Source: a virus
IMG/VR virus record: IMGVR_UViG_3300032006_000008
Location: 1 to 55,290 of that record
Direction: 5' to 3' (one strand)
Length of the DNA: 55,290 nt
Below the pieces are notes generated by a model that was given only the letters and a program-made list of their open reading frames with translations, did no database searches and was not told the origin of the DNA. A program made the position numbers and the translations under genes. Shown one piece after another: positions 7,755 through 44,434 of the stretch; positions within the stretch are counted from its first letter, which is position 1, and every line of letters begins with the position of its first letter.

Positions 7755-7777
7755 ATTTTACTCCATAATAACCGTTC

Positions 7778-7821
7778 GCCCCTCTCGGAAGAAAGGAGGA
7801 GGACAAAGAACCAAAAGGGGC
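7778..7821 (-). other. Possible hairpin between capsid gene and next gene
   Basis: GCCCCT (7778-7783) and AGGGGC (7816-7821) can pair, with a 32-base loop, in the 96-base gap after the capsid stop codon. There is no T-run after it in the minus direction, so a classical terminator is unlikely. A partial attenuator or mRNA 3'-end stabiliser is possible. Confidence 0.35.
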
Positions 7822-7850
7822 TACTAAGTTATATTTCACGAAACTAGTCC

Positions 7851-24383: not shown

Positions 24384-25037
24384 ATGAAATCAATAGATGT
24401 TACTTTCAATGAAAAAGACAGCACTGGATTTAAACCAATACTTCAAGGTGAATATCCAGCTCATATAACTTCATTTGAATCAAGAGATTTAAATACTAAA
24501 GCTGGTAAAGCAACTGTGTTTAATCTCAAATATACAGTTTCAGAAGAAGTTGCTAATTTAGAGCAAACTGTCTATGAGATGGATGGATACAATATAGCAG
24601 TAGATGATAAAGGTCATCAAGTTGTTATAAAAGATGCTGATGGAAATCCTCAAAAGACTGACTCTGGATTCTTAAAAGGAAGAGTCTTTAGAGACAATGG
24701 ATATTTCTGTTTCACAGAAAAAGAAGGTTCTTCTAAAAATGGAAGATACTTCGGATTACTATCATCTCTTGGAATAGACTTAGGCGATGTTGAGGTAGAT
24801 GGAGTAAAACATAAAAAACTTGGATTGATTGAAGAAGAAGATGTGGTTGGAAAACCATGTACTATTCGCATTCAACAACAAGAATATGTTACTCACGAAA
24901 CCAGAGACTTGCCAGAGGGTGAGCAAGAAAAGCGTAAGGCTTGGAAAGTGTTTACTGTTAAAGCTTGGGACACTAATAGATTCGGTAAAGCAACTGAACT
25001 ATCAGCAGAAGAGCTATCAGAAGACGTACCATTTTAA
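24384..25037 (+). CDS. SSB-like single-strand DNA-binding protein
   Basis: 217 residues. An OB-fold-like beta sequence (GKATVFNLKYTVSEEVANLE, KNGRYFGLLSSLGIDLGDVE) leads to an acidic tail ending EELSEDVPF, like the DDIPF tip of bacterial SSBs that recruits repair proteins. It belongs to the DUF669-like phage ssDNA-binding type in appearance. RBS GGAGG. It is last in the recombination module and is followed by the double structured RNA region. Confidence 0.75.
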   Translation: MKSIDVTFNEKDSTGFKPILQGEYPAHITSFESRDLNTKAGKATVFNLKYTVSEEVANLEQTVYEMDGYNIAVDDKGHQVVIKDADGNPQKTDSGFLKGRVFRDNGYFCFTEKEGSSKNGRYFGLLSSLGIDLGDVEVDGVKHKKLGLIEEEDVVGKPCTIRIQQQEYVTHETRDLPEGEQEKRKAWKVFTVKAWDTNRFGKATELSAEELSEDVPF

Positions 25038-25040
25038 TGA

Positions 25041-25152
25041 ATGGGGAATATTGCTAGAGACTAGGTTGGCACATTCTTGTTAAGGTATGTGTTAGAATAG
25101 TTGAAAAAGTAATAAAAACTAAGGTTGGCTCTTTAGTTGATATATTCCCCAT
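25041..25152 (+). ncRNA. Structured RNA element B1 (long stem)
   Basis: The 208-base gap after the SSB-like gene holds two long stems. In B1, ATGGGGAATAT (25041-25051) pairs perfectly with ATATTCCCCAT (25142-25152). Inside, CTAGAGA (25054-25060) pairs with TCTTTAG (25130-25136) with one G-U pair. The word GGTTGGC occurs twice (25064-25070 and 25123-25129). No T-run follows and no ORF explains it. Probably a structured leader, processing site or ncRNA. Confidence 0.6.
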
Positions 25153-25156
25153 CAAT

Positions 25157-25220
25157 ATGAGGCTAGGTATTGCCAGTAGATTGAAAAGCACAACAGTCTA
25201 TGTTATGGCTCTAGCCTCAT
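25157..25220 (+). ncRNA. Structured RNA element B2 (three-part rod)
   Basis: ATGAGGCTAG (25157-25166) pairs perfectly with CTAGCCTCAT (25211-25220). Inside, GCCA (25172-25175) pairs with TGGC (25206-25209) and TAGATTG (25177-25183) pairs with CAGTCTA (25194-25200) with one T-G pair, closing a 10-base loop AAAAGCACAA. It begins four bases after B1 and ends 25 bases before the next ATG. It has no T-loop or tRNA geometry and no T-run. Confidence 0.65.
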
Positions 25221-25245
25221 TTAACTAAAAAAGGAAGGAAAAATT

Positions 25246-25881
25246 ATGGGCTTTGATTGTTATGGATTAAATCCACAAATGAATGAAGAACCGCATCCAA
25301 GAATACACGAAATACTAGAAACATATGGTAAAAATGGAATGTTAGATTGGAGTTCTCCAATACCAAAAGATGTAACTGAAGAGTATTTCAAATTAACTGA
25401 CGAAAGAGATGAAGCAAATCCAGGAAGTTACTTTAGAAATAATGTATGGTGGTGGAGACCTTTATGGAATTTTGTATGTAATACTTGTGATGATTTCTTA
25501 AGTGAAAAAGATATGGAAGGTGGAAGTTATAATGATGGTAGAAAAATATCTAAGACTAAAGCTGTAAAGATAGGTAAAAGATTGTCTGAAAAATTGGCTG
25601 ATGGAACAGTTGATATGGTATGCAGAAGATATGAATTAGCAAAAGCAAGGGCAGATGTTCACAATAAAAAAGTTCAGAAAAATCTAGATAAGATAACAAA
25701 AGAATGCCAAGATAAGCATGGAAAAGATTTAGTTCCTGCTGATTACCCAGAGCCATTTAAAACTCTTTGGAAAGAAACGTATGATACTAAGTCTTGGGAT
25801 TCTGATTATCCTTTTCGCAAGGACAATATAGAAGATTTTGCAACATTCTGCTTACAGTCTGGAGGATTTGAGATATGTTAA
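25246..25881 (+). CDS. Conserved phage hypothetical protein (GFDCYGLNP)
   Basis: 211 residues. MGFDCYGLNP at the start and SYFRNNVWWWRPLWNFVC (about residues 64-81) are typical of a phage protein family found in many marine and enteric phages without known function. The C-terminal half is charged and helical, ending CLQSGGFEIC. RBS AAGGAAGG. It follows the structured RNA region and starts a new gene run. Confidence 0.75.
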   Translation: MGFDCYGLNPQMNEEPHPRIHEILETYGKNGMLDWSSPIPKDVTEEYFKLTDERDEANPGSYFRNNVWWWRPLWNFVCNTCDDFLSEKDMEGGSYNDGRKISKTKAVKIGKRLSEKLADGTVDMVCRRYELAKARADVHNKKVQKNLDKITKECQDKHGKDLVPADYPEPFKTLWKETYDTKSWDSDYPFRKDNIEDFATFCLQSGGFEIC

Positions 25882-26724: not shown

Positions 26725-26965
26725 AACACTTTGGAATGGATTTGCCTCTATAAGCACCATTTTAATTGAAAGATGTAAAAGGAAAAAAGAGAATCTTGAA
26801 ATACAGCATGGTGATTCTATAATGGTAATACCGCTAGATAAATTAGATAGTCCTGATTGGATTCATAAAAAATCTTTTAAGGATAAATTTAAAAATAGGA
26901 AATATAGGTTATATAACTTTAAATTTGAGGAGACAAGGAATGTTAATCAAGAAAGCTTACTTTAA
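26708..26965 (+). CDS. Small hypothetical protein
   Basis: 85 residues, basic, with LEIQHGDSIMVIPLDKLDSP in the middle and KFKNRKYRLYNFKF at the C-terminal side. It overlaps the previous gene by 17 bases. It is followed at once by structured element C, whose stem begins at its stop codon. No recognised family. Confidence 0.6.
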   Translation: MKIKSKTLWNGFASISTILIERCKRKKENLEIQHGDSIMVIPLDKLDSPDWIHKKSFKDKFKNRKYRLYNFKFEETRNVNQESLL

Positions 26966-27031
26966 TTGGGGCTGGCTTCCTCTTGTTCATTTCCCTCATC
27001 CTCAATCCTCATCACAAAAGCTAGCCCCAAT
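26965..27031 (+). ncRNA. Structured RNA element C with CCTC-rich loop
   Basis: ATTGGGGCTGGCTT (26965-26978) pairs with AAGCTAGCCCCAAT (27018-27031): 14 bp with a single G-U pair. The 39-base loop is pyrimidine-rich and holds four CCTC words (26979, 26994, 27000, 27007), the core of the 16S anti-Shine-Dalgarno sequence. The next gene has AGAGGG as RBS (27041 region), which a loop CCTCT can pair with. It may control translation of the next gene or bind other RBSs. No T-run follows. Confidence 0.65.
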
Positions 27032-31961: not shown

Positions 31962-32121
31962 AGACTTATGGTTAAGAAAATTATTAAAACTAGCTCAAGA
32001 GAATATGGAAGAAGCTCTTCAGAAATCGTCTATAAATGAATGGGGGGAGTCTAAGGTTTATATGAAAATGGTTCAGCAAAGACTAAACGCTATGTCAGAC
32101 TACATTAAAGCAAAGAATTAA
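31954..32121 (+). CDS. Last early gene, small helical protein
   Basis: 55 residues from ATG at 31954 (MSKDLWLRKLLKLAQENMEE), chosen over an upstream in-frame start at 31918 because AAGAGG sits just before it. The product is helical and basic. Its stop codon (TAA) shares the bases TTAA with the stop of the convergent gene on the other strand. Confidence 0.6.
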   Translation: MSKDLWLRKLLKLAQENMEEALQKSSINEWGESKVYMKMVQQRLNAMSDYIKAKN

Positions 32122-35100
32122 TAGTCTTCATCTATAGTCTCATAAATGTCGTTCATCACATTTGCTCCTGGAACATAAGCTCTTAAACCTGCCCATCCCT
32201 CTCCTTTTACTAAGGATAATAATACGTTTACAATAACAGGTAGGAAAAAGAACTGCCAATCTTTGACATATTGCTCTTCTTCATCTTCTGTCATTTGTCC
32301 AGCCACTAATAATCCCAACATTAGTGTTCTTAAAATAAATGATATAGTTACAGATTGAGCACCCCTTACACTATTTCCCATAGGCATTGGTAAAAATCTT
32401 CTTAATATAGAATTAGCAAGAGAAATTCCAGGAGCAAATGTAGATAAAACAGTCAATACTGACATACCTCCTCTAATAGCTAAAAATGTAAACATTCTCT
32501 CAGCAGATAAATCAAATTTAGGATTGCCACTAGCTATTAAATCACCATATCCTAATTTCTCTCCTGTTAATGTTCTAGTAACTTTTCTTTTGCCAGCTGT
32601 AAGTAGCCTAGAACTCCAGCCTGGAACATGAAAAAATCCCCCACTCTCAGAAAAGAATTGCTCCATTATATTGTACTCTCTGACCCATTGAGCAAATGTA
32701 TAGGTTTTGAATTGAAAACCTACCACCCCAAATAACCCACCAAACATCTTTGGAAAATATTCCCTAGACATACCAAACATAGTATTTTTAACATTGACCC
32801 TAGCCATTATTAATGAAGGGGCTTGTTTATATTTATTACCCTCCTTATTTGCGTCAAGTTGTCCTAGTTTCTCTGCTAGTAACATACCTTGAATAGCAGC
32901 CCTCCTTCTCATAAATAATTCCACACCACTAAAAGTGAATAAAGATTTTGCACTTTCACTAATTTGCCACGTTAACATCCATGATGCTAACTGATTAATC
33001 TGGCTACTATTTAAACTCTGGTTTAAATCCTTAATCCTTTTCTTTAAAATTAAAATTTCTTTTCTAGTAGCTACCGCTTCTCTAATATCATTTTCTTTTA
33101 TATTATCTATATTTTCTTTCTTAGAAAGAATTTTCTTTAAATGATTCATTTGCAACCAAAAAGCTGCTCTTTGTTTCCTTAATGCTTCATAATTATCTTG
33201 GTCTTTTTGTGGAAGTAGTCTCATTAACCATCTATCTATTCCAGTATTCTTGTTTATAAAATCTTTTTTATTCATCTTTAAAAGAGACCAATTGAGCCTT
33301 GCACTCATAAAAGTATGCCACGGGGTTGATGATTCATCCCCACCTGCCATATAATCAGTATAAGCTGTAATTAAATCATCAACTCCACTAGCTTCTACAG
33401 CGTCTAATACTTCAGCGTCTTTCATCATTCCCCTAACAGCTAGAGTGTCTCTAAATCCCCAGTCTTCTATTAGACTTTCCATTTGAGTCATGTTTGTAAT
33501 GGATGATAGCCAATTCAAAACATTACCAGAAACCCAGTTATTATGGTTAGATGCCCACTTAGAAACTTGCCTTGATGTTACTGGAGAAGTTTGTCCGTTT
33601 CTACCTCTAATGGCATTAATCCTATCAGCTGATTCTTGAAATCCATACTTAAAACCTAAAAATCCAGCGTCATAAGATAAATCTTTTAGTGATATTTTAG
33701 TTTGATTTATAAGCCATCTTCTCATCTCTGGGCTTTCAATAATTATCATAGCTTTAAGCAGCTCTGCTTTAAGTCTGCTGTACTGAATAGCTGTTACAAA
33801 TCTATTAGTATAATCTCTGTCTAGGTCTATATCTCTTCTTCTATTAAGAGGGTTTGTAAAAGTTTTTCTATGCTTAGTAAAGTGAGACCTAGTGGCTAGT
33901 TTCATTTTTCTTATATTCTTTGGATTGTAAGGGTCATCAAGAGCCAATGTCTTCATGTCTTGCATCCCGTCTCTCATATCTTCTAAGCTTTTTATCTTAG
34001 ATTCTAATCTAGCCTTTCTGTTCATGTGAAAATAAAACTCTTGAGGGGTAACTAGTTGCTCTCCAGTTGATACTCCCTGTTTAAAATCATTTATTATCTC
34101 CTCAGAATCTTGAAGCTCACCTTTTAGTGCGTTTATCATACCTCCTGATTGGGCAATAGCTTCGTCTACATCATCCCAATAAGTATCTTTTGTATATACT
34201 TGTGGTGAATAATTTTGAGTTACTTTTTTAGTGAACGTATCCCATCCTGCGATAGCCCCATCTCTCATAGTTGCAAGATTCGCCGCCATCCCTCCAATGT
34301 CCTCAATATATTCTAATATCTCTTTATAGTCCTCCATAGCATCTTGCTTCATTTTCTTCTCAGCTAGAATCTTAGCTTCATTTAGAATTTTATTAGTCGC
34401 CTCTATTTCCTCCTCTACCATGTTAATAAACTTTGCATTTTGCTCTCTCTTTAACTGGAGAGCTTGCCATATATTATATTGACCCGGATTCTGCGTTTTA
34501 TTATTAATACCAGCTATTTCATCAATTGGCTGTCTTTCTAAGTATTCAAAATCTGAATAACTATCTACATTTTTATTGCTATCACCTATTGTATAATCAT
34601 ACTGAGTATGTTGAGTAGCTTCATGAAATCCTTCTCTCATTCCAGTCCCTTCCCACATACCATCCATCTGAGCCCCAATAGTCGGCACCCACATATATTC
34701 ACCAGTTTGAGGGTCTATTCCACCTCTCCTTATCATGACAGCAGCATAATATTCATGTTGATTATTAGGCTCAGACCCATCCTCATTTCTTTTCATCATT
34801 ACCCAAACAGATTCAACTCCATTTTTTTCTTGCTGATTAATAATCATCTCATGATGACTCGGACCTTGATATGCTTCTCCAAACTCTGTTGTGTATTCTT
34901 TTCTATATGTAGTTAAAAAATCCTTTTCTTCTTCTGTTAAGTTTTGATATAAAGTAGGAACTATATACCTTACCCTTCCATCAGCTAAATCCGATAATAA
35001 ACGAATATAATCATCTCTTATCAAATCTTCTTGTTTCTCTCTGGTTAAGTCATCAAAATGCTTATCAACAACTAATTCTTTGCTAATCCTCTCGGTAACT

Positions 35101-35879
35101 TGCTCCCCTATTACCTCCTCAACAATGGGATAATCATACCTTTCCTTATGCATAGTTCTGAATCTAATGTCTTCTAGATTTTTATAATTCCTTAATGTTG
35201 AGAGAACTCTTTTAGTAAAAAACCCATTAATTTCTCCATAGGCATCAACAAATGGCTGTTGCATATCAAATATTGATTCATTAAGACTTGTTATTTTATC
35301 TAAAATCAGAACACCTGCCCCAGTCTCTTCTTGAGTTGCAACCATTCTAAATATATCCCTTGAATACTCATTCCAGTTCCCAAGCTTCTTCTTTGGTTTT
35401 ACCCTTACAAACCTATCTACCATTTGAGAATATTTTTTTATTAATGGGACATTTAAGTGATTAAGATTCATCAAAGGAAATCCTAGATAATTATAAGACA
35501 TTACATTTACTGCATCTATAATTTGATGATTGGGCATTACAAACAGAGTCTTAGCCATAACATCAGCAGCGTGCTTAGCTAGGTCATTGTATATTTTATA
35601 ATGCAATCTTAGTCTTAATTTCTCACTTTTCAATCTCCCCACCATTACTTTTCTTCTTTTCTTTATCTCTTTTACTCTTTTATAATCTTTTAGAGATTTT
35701 TGTAATAGAAGTTCTTTATCTAAAGCTTTTATTTCTATTTCAAAACCAGTAGATAAATCTTTTGGTTGTCCAATTGACTGGTTTAAAGAACCAAGAATAG
35801 ACGTTGTTAAAGACTTAGCCTCTTCTTTTGTTACTTTAGACTCAAATAAAACGTTACAATAGTCTGCTGCTCTGCTCAT
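32118..35879 (-). CDS. Large presumed ejection protein (1,253 residues)
   Basis: 1,253 residues, mostly helical and charged, with no enzyme motif that I recognise. The C-terminal third has hydrophobic segments (MLGLLVAGQM; LPVIVNVLLSLVKG) and a motif-rich stretch ARVNVKNTMFGMSREYFPKM, FGGLFGVVGFQFKTYTFAQW that recalls large virion-associated proteins of other phages. Its start overlaps the giant gene by four bases (ATGA). Size, gene order (end of the tail/internal protein cluster) and partial membrane character suggest ejection into the host with the genome. It may be a partner of the RNA-polymerase-like protein. Confidence 0.75.
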   Translation of the reverse strand: MSRAADYCNVLFESKVTKEEAKSLTTSILGSLNQSIGQPKDLSTGFEIEIKALDKELLLQKSLKDYKRVKEIKKRRKVMVGRLKSEKLRLRLHYKIYNDLAKHAADVMAKTLFVMPNHQIIDAVNVMSYNYLGFPLMNLNHLNVPLIKKYSQMVDRFVRVKPKKKLGNWNEYSRDIFRMVATQEETGAGVLILDKITSLNESIFDMQQPFVDAYGEINGFFTKRVLSTLRNYKNLEDIRFRTMHKERYDYPIVEEVIGEQVTERISKELVVDKHFDDLTREKQEDLIRDDYIRLLSDLADGRVRYIVPTLYQNLTEEEKDFLTTYRKEYTTEFGEAYQGPSHHEMIINQQEKNGVESVWVMMKRNEDGSEPNNQHEYYAAVMIRRGGIDPQTGEYMWVPTIGAQMDGMWEGTGMREGFHEATQHTQYDYTIGDSNKNVDSYSDFEYLERQPIDEIAGINNKTQNPGQYNIWQALQLKREQNAKFINMVEEEIEATNKILNEAKILAEKKMKQDAMEDYKEILEYIEDIGGMAANLATMRDGAIAGWDTFTKKVTQNYSPQVYTKDTYWDDVDEAIAQSGGMINALKGELQDSEEIINDFKQGVSTGEQLVTPQEFYFHMNRKARLESKIKSLEDMRDGMQDMKTLALDDPYNPKNIRKMKLATRSHFTKHRKTFTNPLNRRRDIDLDRDYTNRFVTAIQYSRLKAELLKAMIIIESPEMRRWLINQTKISLKDLSYDAGFLGFKYGFQESADRINAIRGRNGQTSPVTSRQVSKWASNHNNWVSGNVLNWLSSITNMTQMESLIEDWGFRDTLAVRGMMKDAEVLDAVEASGVDDLITAYTDYMAGGDESSTPWHTFMSARLNWSLLKMNKKDFINKNTGIDRWLMRLLPQKDQDNYEALRKQRAAFWLQMNHLKKILSKKENIDNIKENDIREAVATRKEILILKKRIKDLNQSLNSSQINQLASWMLTWQISESAKSLFTFSGVELFMRRRAAIQGMLLAEKLGQLDANKEGNKYKQAPSLIMARVNVKNTMFGMSREYFPKMFGGLFGVVGFQFKTYTFAQWVREYNIMEQFFSESGGFFHVPGWSSRLLTAGKRKVTRTLTGEKLGYGDLIASGNPKFDLSAERMFTFLAIRGGMSVLTVLSTFAPGISLANSILRRFLPMPMGNSVRGAQSVTISFILRTLMLGLLVAGQMTEDEEEQYVKDWQFFFLPVIVNVLLSLVKGEGWAGLRAYVPGANVMNDIYETIDEDY

Positions 35880-38800
35880 TTTGTTTTACAATTTCCTAAT
35901 TTTTCTAATAATTTATATGAACCATCATCAAATGTTGCTAATTTTATTTTAGCCCCTACAGCAGGCTCTGAATCAGGAGCATCTCTATATACCTCTGCAA
36001 ACTTGCTACCAAACAATCTAAAAAACCTTCCATCAATTAAATCCATTGGTAAAAAATGGCTCACATTTCTTATCCTGTCAACCCTTAGAGAGCCTTCTCC
36101 CCTTAATTTTAATTTCTCAGCCCTTTGAGACAGCTCTTCTTTAGTCGCTTCTATTTTATTTTCTAGATGGTCTATAGTCTCTTTTAATAAAACTGTTTGA
36201 TTATAGGCAGAATCAAGGTTTGATTTTATTCTTTGAAAATTGGCATATTGAGCTTTATTTTTAAAATCTTGAGATGAGAGACCCTTTTTAGAAGTTAAAA
36301 GTTCATAATCACCCTCTTGGGTGAGTTCCATAGAAACACTCTTTCCATAATCAACCATCTGATTACTTACGCCTTGATGTAATTGTAATTGCCCTAAATA
36401 TTCTCTTTTATATCTCTTAAGCTGATTGGATTCTTTCATATTTTCAATTCTAATATCTCTAAACTTTAACCTAAGAGAAGCAGGAATCATGTCTTGTATT
36501 GTAGATGTCCCGCTAAAGAAAGATAGGGAAGAAACAAATCTTGCTCCATCTGATAGTGCATTGAAATGAGGAAGCCACTGAGAAATAAAATGATTATTAA
36601 AAACAACATCATGGTCAATCTTTGCTACATTCAATTCTATTTCATCAATCAAAGTATTTTTTTCATTTACAACTTGAAGTAACATATAAAATTCTTTATT
36701 CATCTTTCTAGCAAATGCAAGACCTGTAACTATATCATTATCTGATAATTCATATTCTTTAACCAAAGCTGAAAGTTTAGCTGCTCCTTCTGGTCCTGGC
36801 TTTCCAACTATAGCCTGCATAGCCATATACCTTGCATTGTCCTCTTGATTTTTTGACATCTGTAAAAAGTTTGGCATATCATCTATCTGATTATCAACCA
36901 TATGTTTCCAAAGAGAAGCGACTGTATCTTCTAAATATGTTGTAGGAACTGTCTTGTCTCCTTCTTTAATATTATTAAATTGAACATCGTTAATAACAAG
37001 AGGTCTTTGAGGTCTTCTTTGAGCTCTCATCTCTTCCATCATTCTTGCATTATAATCTTTAAATACCTTTTTAGGAACTTTTAAATCTAAAGACATAATA
37101 TCTTGAACTTGCTCTGCTACAGTCTTATTAGTTCTATCATAAACAACTTTGCTCATCTCAGTCAGCTTTTCTGCTCCAACATAACTTTGGTCTTCGTCTC
37201 TTCCTTGCCTTACTTCGCTTGTTTTAAAATGATTAACAACTTTTTTTACTAGTGTCTGAGCTTCCTTATGACCAGAGACTATCTCATTACCCTCTTTATC
37301 TATAATCTTAAATGTTCTACTTCTAATAAACGTAACAAAATTTTCTATAACACCTATAGATGTTTGGCGACCATATAAAGTGCTCCACCAAAGAGCTAGT
37401 AATCCTTTTGTACTTTCATCAAAAGAAGCCTGCTGGATAATAGCCATCTCCCTATCGCTTGTTGTCTTTAGATATTTTACTCCATCTATAACAACTATGG
37501 AGTCACCAATCGGAATATTCTCTTGAACAATATCATCACGAAGTGGAGCATAGTCCATTATTACTTCTTCATCAATTGCTCTTTGAGTTAGGATTACATC
37601 TTGATAGTAATGCCCACTAAAATTTATAGCTAAACCTTTATGATTAAGAGAAGACCTCATAGTTCTAGCGTTTTGCACCATGCCGACTTGAGTTCCAGTT
37701 TCAAAATTATTAGCAATTTCTGTCACTACATTTGGGGTGGTTGGAGTAAATACCTTTTGAGGGTCTGCAAATATATCTAAAGGAATTTGATATACCATAC
37801 TTTTATACTCATCAGTATAATCATACTTATCCCCTGATTTCTGCCATTGAAAATCAATTAATTCTTTAGTTAGCTCCCTGTCCCATTTCCTACTAGTTAC
37901 AGCATCTCCGTCAAAATCTTGTTCTAGCATTTTTTTCATAGTATCATGCATAAAGACAACATCCCCATAATCTCTATATAGAAAATGTGCAATTTCTAAC
38001 ATTTGAGGATTTGTAAAGTGCTGAATTGGAAATCTGTAAAACTGTTCCCACCTATCTTTACTTGGGTCTGGTGGATTATTTTTCAGAAAATCATTAATAG
38101 CGTCTACCTGTTTTCTTCTTCCCTCTCTTGTATTGCCCCATTTGTTCCATTTTTCTACAACTTGTTTGGCTTGCCCATATAGATATGCATCAACTACTAT
38201 ATTCCATGAAACATCAAAGGGGGTTGCTCCATATTGATGAGGTTCTAATATGCCATGAAAATCTGGAATAACATGACTATAATTAGCAGCTTGAAAGCGA
38301 CTTGCTTTTGTAGGCTTCCTTGATTTAACTCTACCTCTAAAAGCTCCATCAACAACAAACCTATTTTTTATCATACCAACTTGAGGGTTAGAAAAATGGC
38401 TATGTAACAATATTGCGAATGAATCTGGGTCTTCTTCTAACATTTCTATAGACTTTGATAAATCAGATTTTGTAATGGTTTGGCTTTTCTGCAAGCTCTT
38501 TAGCCACTTCGCAAGTATATTTGGATTTTCTCTCATAGCAGAAATAGAGTTAAAATAATCTTTTTGATTTGTCTTTACTGCTTCAATTAGCTTATCAAAT
38601 AGAGGTGCTATGTCTGGGTTAGTGGTTATCATATCTTGCCATTGGTCAAACCATTGGAAAGGAGCAGTTCCACTTCCTTTAGAAAAGAAGTTAGAGTTCA
38701 TTAATATTCTAATATCCCCAGGCTCCATATAGTTAACTGTATTAGCAACATCATAGTTACCCTGTGCCATCTTTTTTTCTTCATTTGAAAAGACTTCATC

Positions 38801-41800
38801 CAATGGAATACCTTCAGCAGTTTTTATCTCCACTGAGGTATTATTTTCATTCCATCTAGATGTCCAAATCATTCTATCGCCTGGCTGTGGAGTTCTTGTT
38901 TCATCGCTATATTCATAAACAGTTATTCCAGCAGGAGCTAAAGTATTTAGTCCCTTTACCTGTATATAATCCTCACTATTCTCAGACATTTTTCTATCAA
39001 AAGTTTTTATCCAGCCTGGGAGATTGTCCAACTTATCTTGCTCTGGCATTCTTCCAAGAGGGACTGCTAGTTCAGAAAAGTAATTAGTAGATGATGGCTT
39101 ATTACCATCCCAAATATAATCCCCATTTTCATCCATTAGAGGAATAATTTTCCCAGTCACATCACTTATTGCATATGAGTTTTTATAATCAAACCATAAA
39201 TATGGAAAAGATGTAGCCCCTTCTGCGTTAACACCATCAGCAAACTCATTATTGTATCTTTTAAAATGAGCGGACATAGGATACCCTAGAACTTCATGAA
39301 GAGATTTTGTTCCATGAGTTTTTTGTATCCATCTGTATCTACCAACTATAGCAACAGCTAATTCAACAGCCTCTCCTCTAGCTAAGTTTACATCCTCTTT
39401 CATCTCATCGGCTTGATTTTGCGTTATATTTCCCTTCTCAACTTCTCCATCAAACCAAGCATCTGTATTGTCTTGCTCTCTCGCTATTGTTACATCATCT
39501 ACATCAGAAACACCTATAACTAGAGACTTACCTTTACCTCCCTTACTTGCGACAAGGAAAGCTGGGTATCTCATTTTATTAAATCTTCTATATCCGAATG
39601 CTAATTCCATATTTAATTGGTCTAAAGCATTTTTATCAAGAGTAAAAAATTCATCTTGGAATACCCACAGTTTCCTTAAATCAAACTTTGTTGGGTCGCC
39701 TTCTTGGTATGGATTTTTTTTATGAGCTCTTCTAATTCGTGTAGTATATATATCATTAGCACTTAAAAGGAATACTCTATCATGCATATCAGGGTTAGCT
39801 TCTAAGAAATTAGCTAACACAAAATCAGAATAATTTATCCCATTTACAGGATTAACTTGAGTTTGGCTATGCAATCTCTTGTCTGACTCACCAAGCTTTC
39901 TAGTCCTTCCATCATCTCCTTTTTCAACATTATTTAAAACAAGAGCTCCCCTGTCTCCTCTAGGTATAGAATTTATAATATTGTGATAATGACTGTTTAT
40001 AATATTGTAATTTCTATTAGACTGCTCTTCACTAACATCAACATTAAAAGATTCTTGCAGATATTCATAAAACTCTTCTCTTTCCATTTTGAGATTAGAG
40101 GCTGGTTTTATATAATCACCGCCTTCTTTTTTCCAAGTTCCCTTTCCTCTTGACCAAATATCCCATCTAATATCATTCCAATCATCAATGGTCATCCTCT
40201 CTCCAGAGTATTCTTCTATTAAATTCTTTAAATTCTGAGCATCTTTACCAACTTGTTCTTCTCTTTTATGCTGACCTATCAAATCATCATATGTATCTGG
40301 ATAGTCATCTGCTAGACCTTCTTGATTTTCCCAATCAATATTATCAGTCATATCTCCAACATATCTCTCTAAATCCAGTCTCATAGTCTTAGTGAATGCT
40401 TTACCAAAAGAACCCAAGTCTTCACCAACTGTAAAAAATCTTCTGTTAGATAAGTTTGTAACTCTTCCTATTTCATGACTTTTAGCCCATTTAGAAAACC
40501 AATCTTTTAAAACTTTTGTGTATTTAAATTTAAATCTTAGTTTTCTTATTTGCTTAATTACTCCATTATAGAATCTTTTAAATAATTGTTTTTCAGATAA
40601 TCCAATATTATTATAAGCCTTCTTAAATTCAATCCAAGCTGCTTGAAAATGCTTAGAGGCTGCTACGAAATCACTATCAGGTAATGGATTCATAGCAAAC
40701 TTATTAAGGTCTATTTTGAGTAAAGCTTGAAAAGCTTTTAATATCTCATAAGCTGCTTTTGTAAAATGATTTTGTTTGTCAGTAGAAGATTCTTGATATT
40801 TTTGATTAAATCCTCTTATTCTGTTTAAGAAATTATCAGTACTTCCATATCTTTGCTTAATCGTTTCAATTATCTTATCAACCATCATCTGTCTTTGAGA
40901 ATCATCTTTAAAATTATCATTATACTGACCTAAGAGTTGGTCAATAGCAGTTTCTATTCCAACTCCATCAATATTCTTTTGCTCAAAACTTGTCATAGCT
41001 AACAATGCTTTGGCTAAAGGAGAAAGGCTTTTAAATTCTCTGTCTATCTGGCTAGATTTACTTTTATTTTTTCCAGTCCTATTTTTTATAAATTCTGAAA
41101 CGTCTGTATCTGGTAAAGACTCACTTGCCATAGCTCTATCAAAGTCTGTTGTTCTTCCAGTGTTTTGTTCTCTTTTTTCATCTACGTCTTCTTTAGTATC
41201 TTGACTGACATCAGCTTTCTTTAAATCACCAACCGACATTCCTGTTAGCTCCATCATCTCCTGATATGACATATCCCCCATTCTCTTCGCTCCTCCCAAC
41301 TGAGAAGCATCTACGGTTTCATATTTTGAAGGCTTTTGCTTTTGAGCTGGTGGAGTAGGTGAGCTATCCTGCTCTTGTTTTAGACTTCTTATTGATGAGA
41401 CAATGGCTTTTGCTATTTTTTTCTTGTTTGCTACACTATAAGATAATTCTCCGTTTTTCTTTTTAGCCACAGTTTCATCTTTAAGTAGTCCTTTTTTTAT
41501 AGATGGAAATTCTTCTAATGTATTATTTAATTGAGTAGCTGTTAGCGATGATAAAAATTTTGTAGGATTCTCTTTAGATTCAAGCTCTCCTATTATCTTT
41601 CCTCTTTTTACTTCTTGTGGGTCTTTAGATGGCTTATATGGAGTTCTTTTATTAATGTCATCCCCAAGCTCCTTTTTAACCTTTTCGTATCTCTTTCTAC
41701 CTTCTTCAGTATGTCTATATACTTCTTCATCTAACGCTTGTTCTGCTTTTCTTTCATATTCTTTCTCAGGCTCTTTTTCTGATGGTGCAGTAAATATATT

Positions 41801-44434
41801 TGTTAATTCTTTTTCAAAACTTGTATACTTACTTTCAGCATCGTGTATACCCTCAGTCGCGTCAATAATGGCTTGCTCCTCAGAAAGTCTTTGATTAACA
41901 AGACTATCTACAAAGTCTTTTCCCTTCTTACCTTTGATAATAATCTTTGGGTCACCTTTTTTACTTTGCCCTGTTAAACTACTTCCTAAGCTTCTCCCTT
42001 TTTTAAACCCTAATTCACCAGTAACAAACATTCCAATCATCTCATCTAATTGTCTATTAATAGTATCTTCATCTGCCGCTAGATTTTCATTTGAGGACAG
42101 TGAAGGAAATATTTTCTTTATATACTCTCTTGCTAATATTAATGCATTTTCCTTTGATTGCTCATCCATCTCTTCTAGGATGCCCATGCCGCTTGGGTTC
42201 TTCATAAGTATATTTAATACCTGAGCTCCAACATCCTTATCTTGACTTGATTGCCTACCTCCAATCTCTTGCATAGCTTTAACAACTTCATTATCAGTTC
42301 TTAAGTTTCTATACTCATCTAAATTATATCCTCCGTCTTTAGCTATCTTCTTTAACCACATCCCCCAAGTCATATTGTCAACATGGTCTTCAGACTTAGC
42401 CTCCTCAGACAGATTACTTCCTACTAACTGACCTTGAGTGTAATTTCTTCCAAGAGTTTCTTGTAAATCTTGATTAATTTCCTCATCTAGCTCAGATTCA
42501 ATAGATTGTTTCTTAGCTCTATTAGCAAGAACTCTAATACCACCTGCTCCCACTCCAAAGACACCACCACCTAATAGTCCCCCAAATCCCTCAGCGAACA
42601 TTTGTTGCTTGTCAAACACATCATCAAACGTCTGGTCAGGTCTAACTTGTCCCAATGCTACAGCATTTTGAAATCTTTCATTAATTCCCTGAAAGACTTC
42701 TTCAACCATCTCTATTGTACCTTGCTTGAGAATATTGTATGCAAAATCTGCGTCTCTATTTTTCCATCCTTGTCTAAATCTATTCTTATTTGAGTTCCAT
42801 GCAGTCCTAGCTATTCCCTTTTTAGGAATAGAAGCCCTAGCTGCTTTAGCAATTGAAGGGATTCTTAACATCTCTAACATTGTATTAACAACACCAGTCT
42901 GAAGCCAAGCTGTGGAAGCTAAATCTAATGCCTCCATCTCTGTAAGAGTTCCATCCTTGACTTCTTTTTCCATGAGCTCTCCAAAGACTTCATCAAAAGA
43001 ACCTCCAGCTTGTTGACTAAACATAAATGCACTTGACAATGCATAAACAGTTGGACTCTTAGCTGTTAGTGAGTTAACAACCATAGCTACAGACGCAACC
43101 ATTGAAGGAGCTGATGTGATTAGTAAGTCTCTACCCCATGCCCATGTTTTACCATCTCCATCTAATATATCAGAGAACTTTTGACCAATTCCTCTCTCCA
43201 TCATGTCTTGTTGAAAAAGTGCATAAGCTAGAGCCTCAGGGTCTTTTTGAATAGCAGCTTCCATCTCAGCTCTTGCTAGTTTGTTTGCCTCCTTTAACCC
43301 TCCGTAACTCCAATCCTTCCCAAGCATCATCCCAACTGATTTCATCAAATTTGGAGCTTTTTTCATTTGAGCGAGCTTTTCTTCTGGCTCTAGTATATAT
43401 CTAATGTTTTCTGGCGAGAGTTCGTCTTTTGTAGCTGTTTCAAGTTTTTGTACTTTAATATTTAAACTAGCTTTGAATTGGTCTTCTAATGCTTTATCAT
43501 TTAATAGAAAATTATCATGGGAAGAACCACCATCATCTTTCTTTACCTCTTCCTCTTCTCTTACTTTATTTTGTAAAGAATCATAGACTGTAGAATCTGG
43601 AACAGACTGAAATGATTTTTCATCAATTCCTAGCATATTAGCTAAGTCTTTAGATATAATGTGACCACTACCTGTTCTAAAGTTATTTTCATCCTCAGAT
43701 TGCATAGTAATAGCTGGAACATTTATTGTTTCCATACTATCTATTCTGCCAGATGATTCTGCAATCATAACAGCTTTAGCTGTATCAGCGTCTTCTCCAA
43801 ACATCTCATCTATATGATTTAGATACTTTTCATCTAATCCATATGTTTTAGCTATTGTAGTGTTGTCTAGACCAAGAAACGGCTTATGAAGACCCTCTCT
43901 ATGCGTTGTCCACCTTTTCCATCCTTCTTTCTTTTTTAATCTAGATGCATATTCAATATTTTGCTCTGGGGTCATATCCGATGGAGGAACAAACTTTCCC
44001 CAGACTAATTTTTGATTATCTACACCTTGATAATGGTCATTTATTTGAAATAATCCATGACTATGGGTTTTTTTGAGATTTTTCTTAGGGTCAGGACCTT
44101 CGGGTGTAAAGTCTCCATAAATACCACTCTGTAAATTTTCCCAGTGCTCTCTTAATGATACAGTATTTTGAGCATTATGAGCCTGCAAAGCTTGCCCTCC
44201 ACTTCTAAGTGGGGTAGCTAAGTCTACATTACCAAATGCTCTTCTCCAGTCAGGACCGTAAGAATCTAGACCTCTGACTATTTCTTCTGCTTTTTCAGGG
44301 GATTGGTCTTGTAGAAGCTGTATTACAACTTCTCTATCTGGCTTATTCTGAGCTTGTGAAAGAGTCCAAAAACCGGTTTCTACATATTGTCCTCTTGCCC
44401 AACTAGCTAATTCCTGGAGTGAATATCCATTCAT
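35876..44434 (-). CDS. Giant virion protein: RNA polymerase beta-prime-like barrel plus transglycosylase-like N terminus
   Basis: 2,852 residues. At the N terminus, SHGLFQIN (125-132), GWKRWTTHREG (171-181) and AKAVMIAESSGRID (219-232, Glu226) are motifs of SLT/phage-lysozyme folds, but in the reverse of the usual order. Ala/Val-rich segments around 430-520 and 620-640 could insert in membrane. The block 2030-2177 matches the RNA polymerase beta-prime double-psi barrel region: GAFR...SR, HQYGATP (2066-2072), RFPIQH (2134-2139), VVFMH (2159-2163) and the catalytic DFDGD (2173-2177). The beta-type barrel with its lysines was not located. Known parallels are N4 vRNAP and crAss-like phage gp66, which are packaged, ejected and transcribe early genes. 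Overlap with the next gene is ATGA. Polymerase activity is inferred. Confidence 0.75.
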   Translation of the reverse strand: MNGYSLQELASWARGQYVETGFWTLSQAQNKPDREVVIQLLQDQSPEKAEEIVRGLDSYGPDWRRAFGNVDLATPLRSGGQALQAHNAQNTVSLREHWENLQSGIYGDFTPEGPDPKKNLKKTHSHGLFQINDHYQGVDNQKLVWGKFVPPSDMTPEQNIEYASRLKKKEGWKRWTTHREGLHKPFLGLDNTTIAKTYGLDEKYLNHIDEMFGEDADTAKAVMIAESSGRIDSMETINVPAITMQSEDENNFRTGSGHIISKDLANMLGIDEKSFQSVPDSTVYDSLQNKVREEEEVKKDDGGSSHDNFLLNDKALEDQFKASLNIKVQKLETATKDELSPENIRYILEPEEKLAQMKKAPNLMKSVGMMLGKDWSYGGLKEANKLARAEMEAAIQKDPEALAYALFQQDMMERGIGQKFSDILDGDGKTWAWGRDLLITSAPSMVASVAMVVNSLTAKSPTVYALSSAFMFSQQAGGSFDEVFGELMEKEVKDGTLTEMEALDLASTAWLQTGVVNTMLEMLRIPSIAKAARASIPKKGIARTAWNSNKNRFRQGWKNRDADFAYNILKQGTIEMVEEVFQGINERFQNAVALGQVRPDQTFDDVFDKQQMFAEGFGGLLGGGVFGVGAGGIRVLANRAKKQSIESELDEEINQDLQETLGRNYTQGQLVGSNLSEEAKSEDHVDNMTWGMWLKKIAKDGGYNLDEYRNLRTDNEVVKAMQEIGGRQSSQDKDVGAQVLNILMKNPSGMGILEEMDEQSKENALILAREYIKKIFPSLSSNENLAADEDTINRQLDEMIGMFVTGELGFKKGRSLGSSLTGQSKKGDPKIIIKGKKGKDFVDSLVNQRLSEEQAIIDATEGIHDAESKYTSFEKELTNIFTAPSEKEPEKEYERKAEQALDEEVYRHTEEGRKRYEKVKKELGDDINKRTPYKPSKDPQEVKRGKIIGELESKENPTKFLSSLTATQLNNTLEEFPSIKKGLLKDETVAKKKNGELSYSVANKKKIAKAIVSSIRSLKQEQDSSPTPPAQKQKPSKYETVDASQLGGAKRMGDMSYQEMMELTGMSVGDLKKADVSQDTKEDVDEKREQNTGRTTDFDRAMASESLPDTDVSEFIKNRTGKNKSKSSQIDREFKSLSPLAKALLAMTSFEQKNIDGVGIETAIDQLLGQYNDNFKDDSQRQMMVDKIIETIKQRYGSTDNFLNRIRGFNQKYQESSTDKQNHFTKAAYEILKAFQALLKIDLNKFAMNPLPDSDFVAASKHFQAAWIEFKKAYNNIGLSEKQLFKRFYNGVIKQIRKLRFKFKYTKVLKDWFSKWAKSHEIGRVTNLSNRRFFTVGEDLGSFGKAFTKTMRLDLERYVGDMTDNIDWENQEGLADDYPDTYDDLIGQHKREEQVGKDAQNLKNLIEEYSGERMTIDDWNDIRWDIWSRGKGTWKKEGGDYIKPASNLKMEREEFYEYLQESFNVDVSEEQSNRNYNIINSHYHNIINSIPRGDRGALVLNNVEKGDDGRTRKLGESDKRLHSQTQVNPVNGINYSDFVLANFLEANPDMHDRVFLLSANDIYTTRIRRAHKKNPYQEGDPTKFDLRKLWVFQDEFFTLDKNALDQLNMELAFGYRRFNKMRYPAFLVASKGGKGKSLVIGVSDVDDVTIAREQDNTDAWFDGEVEKGNITQNQADEMKEDVNLARGEAVELAVAIVGRYRWIQKTHGTKSLHEVLGYPMSAHFKRYNNEFADGVNAEGATSFPYLWFDYKNSYAISDVTGKIIPLMDENGDYIWDGNKPSSTNYFSELAVPLGRMPEQDKLDNLPGWIKTFDRKMSENSEDYIQVKGLNTLAPAGITVYEYSDETRTPQPGDRMIWTSRWNENNTSVEIKTAEGIPLDEVFSNEEKKMAQGNYDVANTVNYMEPGDIRILMNSNFFSKGSGTAPFQWFDQWQDMITTNPDIAPLFDKLIEAVKTNQKDYFNSISAMRENPNILAKWLKSLQKSQTITKSDLSKSIEMLEEDPDSFAILLHSHFSNPQVGMIKNRFVVDGAFRGRVKSRKPTKASRFQAANYSHVIPDFHGILEPHQYGATPFDVSWNIVVDAYLYGQAKQVVEKWNKWGNTREGRRKQVDAINDFLKNNPPDPSKDRWEQFYRFPIQHFTNPQMLEIAHFLYRDYGDVVFMHDTMKKMLEQDFDGDAVTSRKWDRELTKELIDFQWQKSGDKYDYTDEYKSMVYQIPLDIFADPQKVFTPTTPNVVTEIANNFETGTQVGMVQNARTMRSSLNHKGLAINFSGHYYQDVILTQRAIDEEVIMDYAPLRDDIVQENIPIGDSIVVIDGVKYLKTTSDREMAIIQQASFDESTKGLLALWWSTLYGRQTSIGVIENFVTFIRSRTFKIIDKEGNEIVSGHKEAQTLVKKVVNHFKTSEVRQGRDEDQSYVGAEKLTEMSKVVYDRTNKTVAEQVQDIMSLDLKVPKKVFKDYNARMMEEMRAQRRPQRPLVINDVQFNNIKEGDKTVPTTYLEDTVASLWKHMVDNQIDDMPNFLQMSKNQEDNARYMAMQAIVGKPGPEGAAKLSALVKEYELSDNDIVTGLAFARKMNKEFYMLLQVVNEKNTLIDEIELNVAKIDHDVVFNNHFISQWLPHFNALSDGARFVSSLSFFSGTSTIQDMIPASLRLKFRDIRIENMKESNQLKRYKREYLGQLQLHQGVSNQMVDYGKSVSMELTQEGDYELLTSKKGLSSQDFKNKAQYANFQRIKSNLDSAYNQTVLLKETIDHLENKIEATKEELSQRAEKLKLRGEGSLRVDRIRNVSHFLPMDLIDGRFFRLFGSKFAEVYRDAPDSEPAVGAKIKLATFDDGSYKLLEKLGNCKTK

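Follow-up and report, generated by a model that had tools for sequence, protein, structure and literature searches.

The stretch of DNA analysed here, hereafter the window (55,290 nucleotides), is a 55-kb virus record from an uncultured phage. Its gene content includes a P22-like portal, a Sak-like annealing protein, a PD-(D/E)XK exonuclease, an SSB-like protein and a DnaB-like helicase, and its early genes run on the + strand from ~18.1 to 32.1 kb. Two very long open reading frames (ORFs) occupy the minus strand (32118-35879, 1253 aa; 35876-44434, 2852 aa), and a GCCCC..GGGGC hairpin with an identical counterpart in a near relative (L089:2090-2190) lies between two minus-strand genes at 7755-7850. 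The SSB-like gene product matches the PHROG 378 single-strand DNA binding protein (E 1.3e-4) and has relatives in about 60 phage contigs of IMG/VR. The product of the next gene has 568 relatives in IMG/VR and gave no match in searches of Pfam and PHROG; its sole full-length relative in a named phage, pelagiphage HTVC023P, is 33% identical, which does not fix the host. The features of the locus, together with two further elements of the early region, are as follows.

24384-25037, + strand: SSB-like gene (ssb), 217 aa, acidic tail ending EDVPF; the array lies directly 3′ of this gene
25038-25245, 208 bases: gap between the SSB-like gene and the next gene, occupied by B1 and B2
25041-25152, + strand: B1, structured RNA of the GGUUGGC family (family II), three-way junction
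25041-25051 (5′ arm) and 25142-25152 (3′ arm), + strand: B1 closing helix P1, perfect 11-bp inverted repeat
25059-25102, + strand: B1 P2 domain, GACTA/TAGTT stem enclosing the hairpin TTGGCACAT..ATGTGTTAG (25066-25095)
25117-25138, + strand: B1 P3 hairpin AACTAAGGTTGGCTCTTTAGTT, carrying the conserved GGTTGGC (25123-25129)
25157-25220, + strand: B2, structured RNA of family I (covariance model R1)
25157-25167 (5′ arm) and 25210-25220 (3′ arm), + strand: B2 closing helix P1, last pair G-U
25168-25171, + strand: B2 bulge TATT, conserved
25172-25175 (GCCA) and 25206-25209 (TGGC), + strand: B2 P2, between the conserved bulges
25176-25183 (GTAGATTG) and 25194-25201 (CAGTCTAT), + strand: B2 P3, spanning 25176-25201, with a variable apical loop; the most covarying helix
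25202-25205, + strand: B2 bulge GTTA, conserved (GNUA across the family)
25246-25881, + strand: next gene, 211 aa, function unknown, member of a large marine phage family
18390-18455, + strand: element A, closed rod near the start of the early genes, outside the family of B1
26965-27031, + strand: element C, family III unit with a C-rich loop, in another gap of the same operon as B1 and B2

A sequence-only reading had proposed that the 208-base gap is filled by two back-to-back structures, and both are confirmed as strong folds on the sense strand. B1 folds with -37.7 kcal/mol (z -5.1) and B2 with -27.4 kcal/mol (z -4.4), none of 200 dinucleotide shuffles being as stable in either case, and the gap as a whole (25038-25245) reaches a folding z of -6.6; the antisense folds are weaker (z -2.95 for B1, -3.4 for B2). 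The perfect stems that had been read, of 11 bp in B1 and 10 bp in B2, are both present, the latter at 25157-25166/25211-25220 and extended to 11 pairs by a G-U pair. In place of the inner 7-bp stem suggested for B1 there is a 9-bp hairpin within a 5-bp stem, plus an 8-bp hairpin. The repeated GGTTGGC described there does exist, at 25064-25070 and 25123-25129 and nowhere else on either strand of the window, but only the copy at 25123 is conserved: the copy at 25064 is GGCTGGC in the relative L082, so that the repeat consists of one conserved and one incidental GGTTGGC.

The gap holds no promoter-like site, and the sole terminator-like match lies on the other strand, inside ssb. Peptide coding by B1 or B2 was rejected, since neither contains an ORF of at least 8 codons with a plausible ribosome-binding site. 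ARAGORN, run on the window, found no tRNA fold among the units.

In the nearest relative (L082/L114, SSB 95% identical), the ssb gap comprises a relative of B1, an extra closed unit of 80 bases (X) and a relative of B2. The pairs of the B1 P2 domain are preserved in L082 despite sequence changes, and the differences in the inner stem of B2 likewise preserve pairing, including a G-C to A-U exchange. A more distant relative (L083, SSB 76% identical) has a single B1-like unit in its ssb gap, with a closing helix wholly different in sequence (TTAGGGGAGATT/AATCTCCCCTAA); the architecture of this unit is similar and the GGTTGGC hairpin is retained. Both covariation and retention of the hairpins in relatives with the same gene order were looked for and found, which strongly supports the proposal of tandem structured RNAs. 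B1 and B2 are real structured RNAs that have been conserved in evolution, and each belongs to a different family.

Family I, to which B2 belongs, comprises about 20 distinct copies, all from uncultured marine phages. A pattern of the conserved core retrieved ten IMG/VR contigs; a covariance model built from eight copies then added members from whole records, and a relaxed pattern added more. In an unfitted MAFFT alignment of the eight copies, 9 of 23 pairs show both-sided change, a result reached by 0 of 500 shuffles. The model-fitted alignment of 21 distinct rows, which leans towards the structure because it was fitted to the model and which includes one weak, doubtful match (L109:5276-5359), has compensatory change at 16 of 23 pairs (0 of 500 shuffles), and 93% of its cells pair, against 32-46% in slid controls. 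The closing helix, the UAUU bulge, the GCCA/UGGC helix and the GNUA bulge on the opposite strand are conserved, the third helix is variable and the apical loop is free. The pair topping P1 is G-U in 20 of the 21 rows and A-U in the remaining one, which points to the + strand as the RNA; model scores at the same two places are 60 and 55 bits in sense, against 14 and 17 in antisense. B2 is thus a structured noncoding RNA family under selection on its secondary structure.

Most distinct copies of family I lie in the ssb 3′ gap, the rest behind genes of the 211-aa family or at other gene borders. All are oriented with the neighbouring genes, and the 3′ neighbour can be any of many different genes or another RNA unit, so B2 is not linked to any single regulated gene. 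At two sites away from ssb (in L202 and L206), further closed rods flank B2. The gap of ~490 bases in L206 (12840-13330) has several closed rods, with B2 inside a larger rod, and also holds a second B2-like unit (GATTAGGTAT..GCCTAATC). The doubtful match at L109:5276-5359 is a unit immediately 5′ of B2 (E 7e-4 with the B2 model), has similar counterparts in L006 and L013, and may represent a paralogous fourth family.

No true copy of family I emerged when 84,980 prokaryote genomes were scanned with a pattern. The relaxed pattern, strict enough that diverged cellular copies could be missed, gave 72 matches, which we rejected because the closing helix is missing from all of them and 69 fall within ORFs. 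In newly fetched viral loci, all nine matches with the helix fall outside ORFs and all five without it fall inside. Comparison of B2 with named phages by blastn gave no convincing match, and in the half of the HTVC023P genome searched B2 was not found, the only hit being a weak 39-base match (E 0.014). The early region of this cultured pelagiphage (L113, 8929-17221) also has many long gaps and strong hairpins.

The mark of family II is a GGUUGGC hairpin adjoining the closing helix. In ssb 3′ gaps, GGTTGGC occurs 21 times in sense, counted in distinct contexts, against once in antisense, and it is absent from the sense strand of 34.8 kb of sequence ending at ssb stop codons. Twenty of the 21 sense occurrences form the 3′ hairpin motif of a closed unit, and 19 stand beside the 3′ arm of a closing stem containing 9 or more Watson-Crick pairs, the exceptions being the first copy in B1 of the window (25064) and one in L121 (8 pairs). 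Closing stems next to the motif have a median of 12 pairs over all 21, compared with about 7 when flanks are shuffled. The closing helix P1 covaries within one subgroup. A single covariance model for the whole of family II was tried and rejected, as the middles do not align, and an exact hairpin pattern for B1 matched only the near relative and unrelated places. By the shared motif and the closed architecture, B1 belongs to structured RNA family II. The GGUUGGC hairpin was also considered as a tRNA D-loop mimic, and its loop geometry seems not to fit.

The sequence-only reading had also suggested that B1 and element A may form one RNA family, on the strength of similar ends and a common GCTAGAxAC. 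This grouping is not supported, since the GGUUGGC 3′ hairpin is absent from element A and from its relative in L082; GCTAGAxAC is at chance level (2 found, 1.16 expected) and is lost in the nearest relative of B1, and we judge the similarity of the ends uninformative. Element A is itself conserved as a closed rod in L082, with a stem changed yet paired and an unchanged loop, and we assign it to none of families I, II and III. Element C does belong to family III, whose rods have GAGYGGUU/ARCCRCUC ends and a pyrimidine-rich loop and adjoin B2 in several phages. For the closing helix of this family, no shuffle reaches the observed number of paired cells, number of double-change cells or covariation score; the other two of five measures do not stand out in this way. 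Model R2, built without the window, recovers element C exactly at 26965-27031 with a modest score (E 1.5e-4 over the early region, 5e-3 over 484 kb). Anti-Shine-Dalgarno mimicry by the loops, which would have supplied family III with a target, was rejected because the signal does not exceed what base composition predicts, except in one phage.

To describe the array across phages, we collected SSB relatives from IMG/VR and defined a closed unit as one with a closing helix of at least 10 base pairs in a stem search. The ssb 3′ gap has a median length of 194 bases (range 69-618, 39 gaps); several gaps with spurious ORFs crossing units were left out of these statistics. At least one closed unit is present in 37 of the 39 distinct gaps, with 51 units in total, a count that comes from related phages rather than independent events and that, resting on a stem search, has its weight in the controls and not in the raw number: shuffled gaps gave 2.1 gaps and 2.2 units, and ssb-side coding sequence of equal length gave 1 unit. 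The median folding z of the gaps is -3.5 in sense, -2.1 in antisense and -2.0 for coding sequence. Each unit is a separate sense-strand fold of 45-135 nt with its own closing helix of ~10-17 bp. At least three families recur behind ssb in varied combinations and orders, some of them also at other sites, and unpaired bases are conserved within families. The orders include B1-B2 (the window), B1-X-B2 (L082), B2-III-II (L119, L130) and longer mixed rows (L163, L170, L169). Three otherwise near-identical phages (L162, L163, L166) differ by a clean unit of ~60 bases and by the lost body of another unit; such single-unit gain and loss, together with the varied orders, indicates that the units behave as separate modules.

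The gaps of L163, L170 and L169 contain more recurring units (TTTGAGGATT../AATCCTCAAA; AAAGAGAAA../TTTCTCTTT; AAGTGTCT../AGGCACTT) that look like additional RNA families.

At the gathering score, no Rfam family matched in the window, and the relatives gave only two tRNAs, located away from the arrays; at the places of A, B1, B2 and C nothing appeared at E up to 10. A search of the open-access literature returned no account of such arrays. The array is a previously undescribed row of small noncoding RNAs kept 3′ of ssb by a group of uncultured marine phages.

On balance we lean towards reading B1 and B2 as a modular array of small RNAs that would be cut from the ssb transcript and probably act in trans. 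The array would be read through together with ssb, as the lack of an internal promoter or terminator suggests. Host ribonucleases would then excise the units or trim back to their closing helices, a release that may resemble that of phage tRNA clusters or of small RNAs derived from 3′ UTRs, and the released RNAs would act in trans. B2 would do so through its conserved pair of four-base bulges, UAUU opposed to GNUA around GCCA/UGGC, whose most likely role is to bind a protein; B1 through its exposed GGUUGGC hairpin; and family III through its C-rich single-stranded loop. We prefer this reading because several families share a gap, because B2 is not bound to one gene, and because unpaired positions are conserved within families, beyond the needs of a plain protecting hairpin.

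The main competing reading, which we regard as possible though clearly less probable, is that the units act in cis, in the processing or stability of the ssb message. The units would be intercistronic elements, either RNase III/RNase E processing sites or hairpins protecting 3′ ends, by which the ssb message is set apart from the rest of the operon and stabilised, in the manner of the RNase III sites of phage T7. Most copies of B2 do lie directly downstream of ssb, and its bulged rod, at ~23 bp, is comparable in length to RNase III substrates. Phage T4 offers a comparison: its SSB gene, gene 32, gives rise to the most stable of the T4 mRNAs and carries an RNase E site close to the stop codon (PMC3014915). 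Most of the measures exclude a lack of structure, not a cis element, and a position mainly 3′ of ssb would be consistent with action in cis on its message as well. Such a role is harder to reconcile with several different units per gap, which exceed the needs of a single boundary, with bulge and loop sequences conserved within families, with the presence of B2 after unrelated genes, and with the branched fold of B1, which is no simple hairpin.

Regulatory leaders acting on the next gene or on the polymerase, whether riboswitch-like or of the put/EAR type that promotes terminator read-through, appear improbable: the last unit often ends immediately 5′ of the next gene's Shine-Dalgarno sequence and the units sit midway in a long operon, yet the window's gap has no terminator and B2 precedes many different genes, or another RNA unit, and no single regulated gene. 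Elements acting as DNA, such as hairpins in single strands that serve replication, packaging or recombination, or what is left of a mobile element, could be imagined from the nearby ssb and replication genes and from the modular gain and loss; we give them very little credence, as conservation of G-U pairs is confined to one strand, fold and model score both drop sharply in antisense, and every copy is oriented with its neighbouring genes. Short inverted repeats abound in AT-rich DNA (42 in 14 kb), but chance hairpins in an AT-rich gap are already refuted by the covariation measured against shuffles, and the folding z-scores and the recurrence in relatives speak against them as well. It also seems unlikely that the ssb 3′ site is a hot spot where phages gather interchangeable noncoding RNAs directed at host functions, the RNA equivalent of anti-defence gene islands. 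In that case every unit would serve as decoy or inhibitor RNA for a host factor of its own, which would account for unrelated RNA families being gained, lost and shuffled at a single site.

The array of processed small RNAs that we favour has partial parallels. Phage tRNA gene clusters are compact, sense-direction arrays of small structured RNAs between phage genes; unlike them, none of the array units is a tRNA, and the two tRNAs of the relatives lie elsewhere. Phage T7 has intercistronic RNase III sites, and with these and the T4 gene 32 mRNA the array shares structured or processed sites at gene borders of phage operons; it differs from both in having several distinct sequence-conserved RNA families per gap. 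Another parallel is offered by 3′-UTR-derived small RNAs, among them CcsR1-4 of Rhodobacter sphaeroides (Alphaproteobacteria), tandem small RNAs 3′ of a coding gene that are processed from the mRNA with involvement of RNase E (PMC8625941). CcsR1-4 are of one RNA kind in a bacterial genome, whereas the phage array combines several unrelated families of shuffling order and content. TIGR arrays (TIGR-Tas) are also tandem RNA units in phages, with one repeat kind plus spacers, processing to 36 nt and an adjacent Nop-domain protein (PMC12045711); the units behind ssb are 45-135 nt long and mutually dissimilar. A TIGR array was rejected for this locus, as the window record has no Nop domain.

The ssb arrays place structured RNAs from several families absent from Rfam in otherwise tightly packed genomes. 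With covariance models for two families and a defining motif for a third, they can be counted in metatranscriptomes, and the conserved address 3′ of ssb indicates where further RNA units should be sought. If the units do act in trans, they would constitute an unexplored layer of phage control over host genes or the phage's own.
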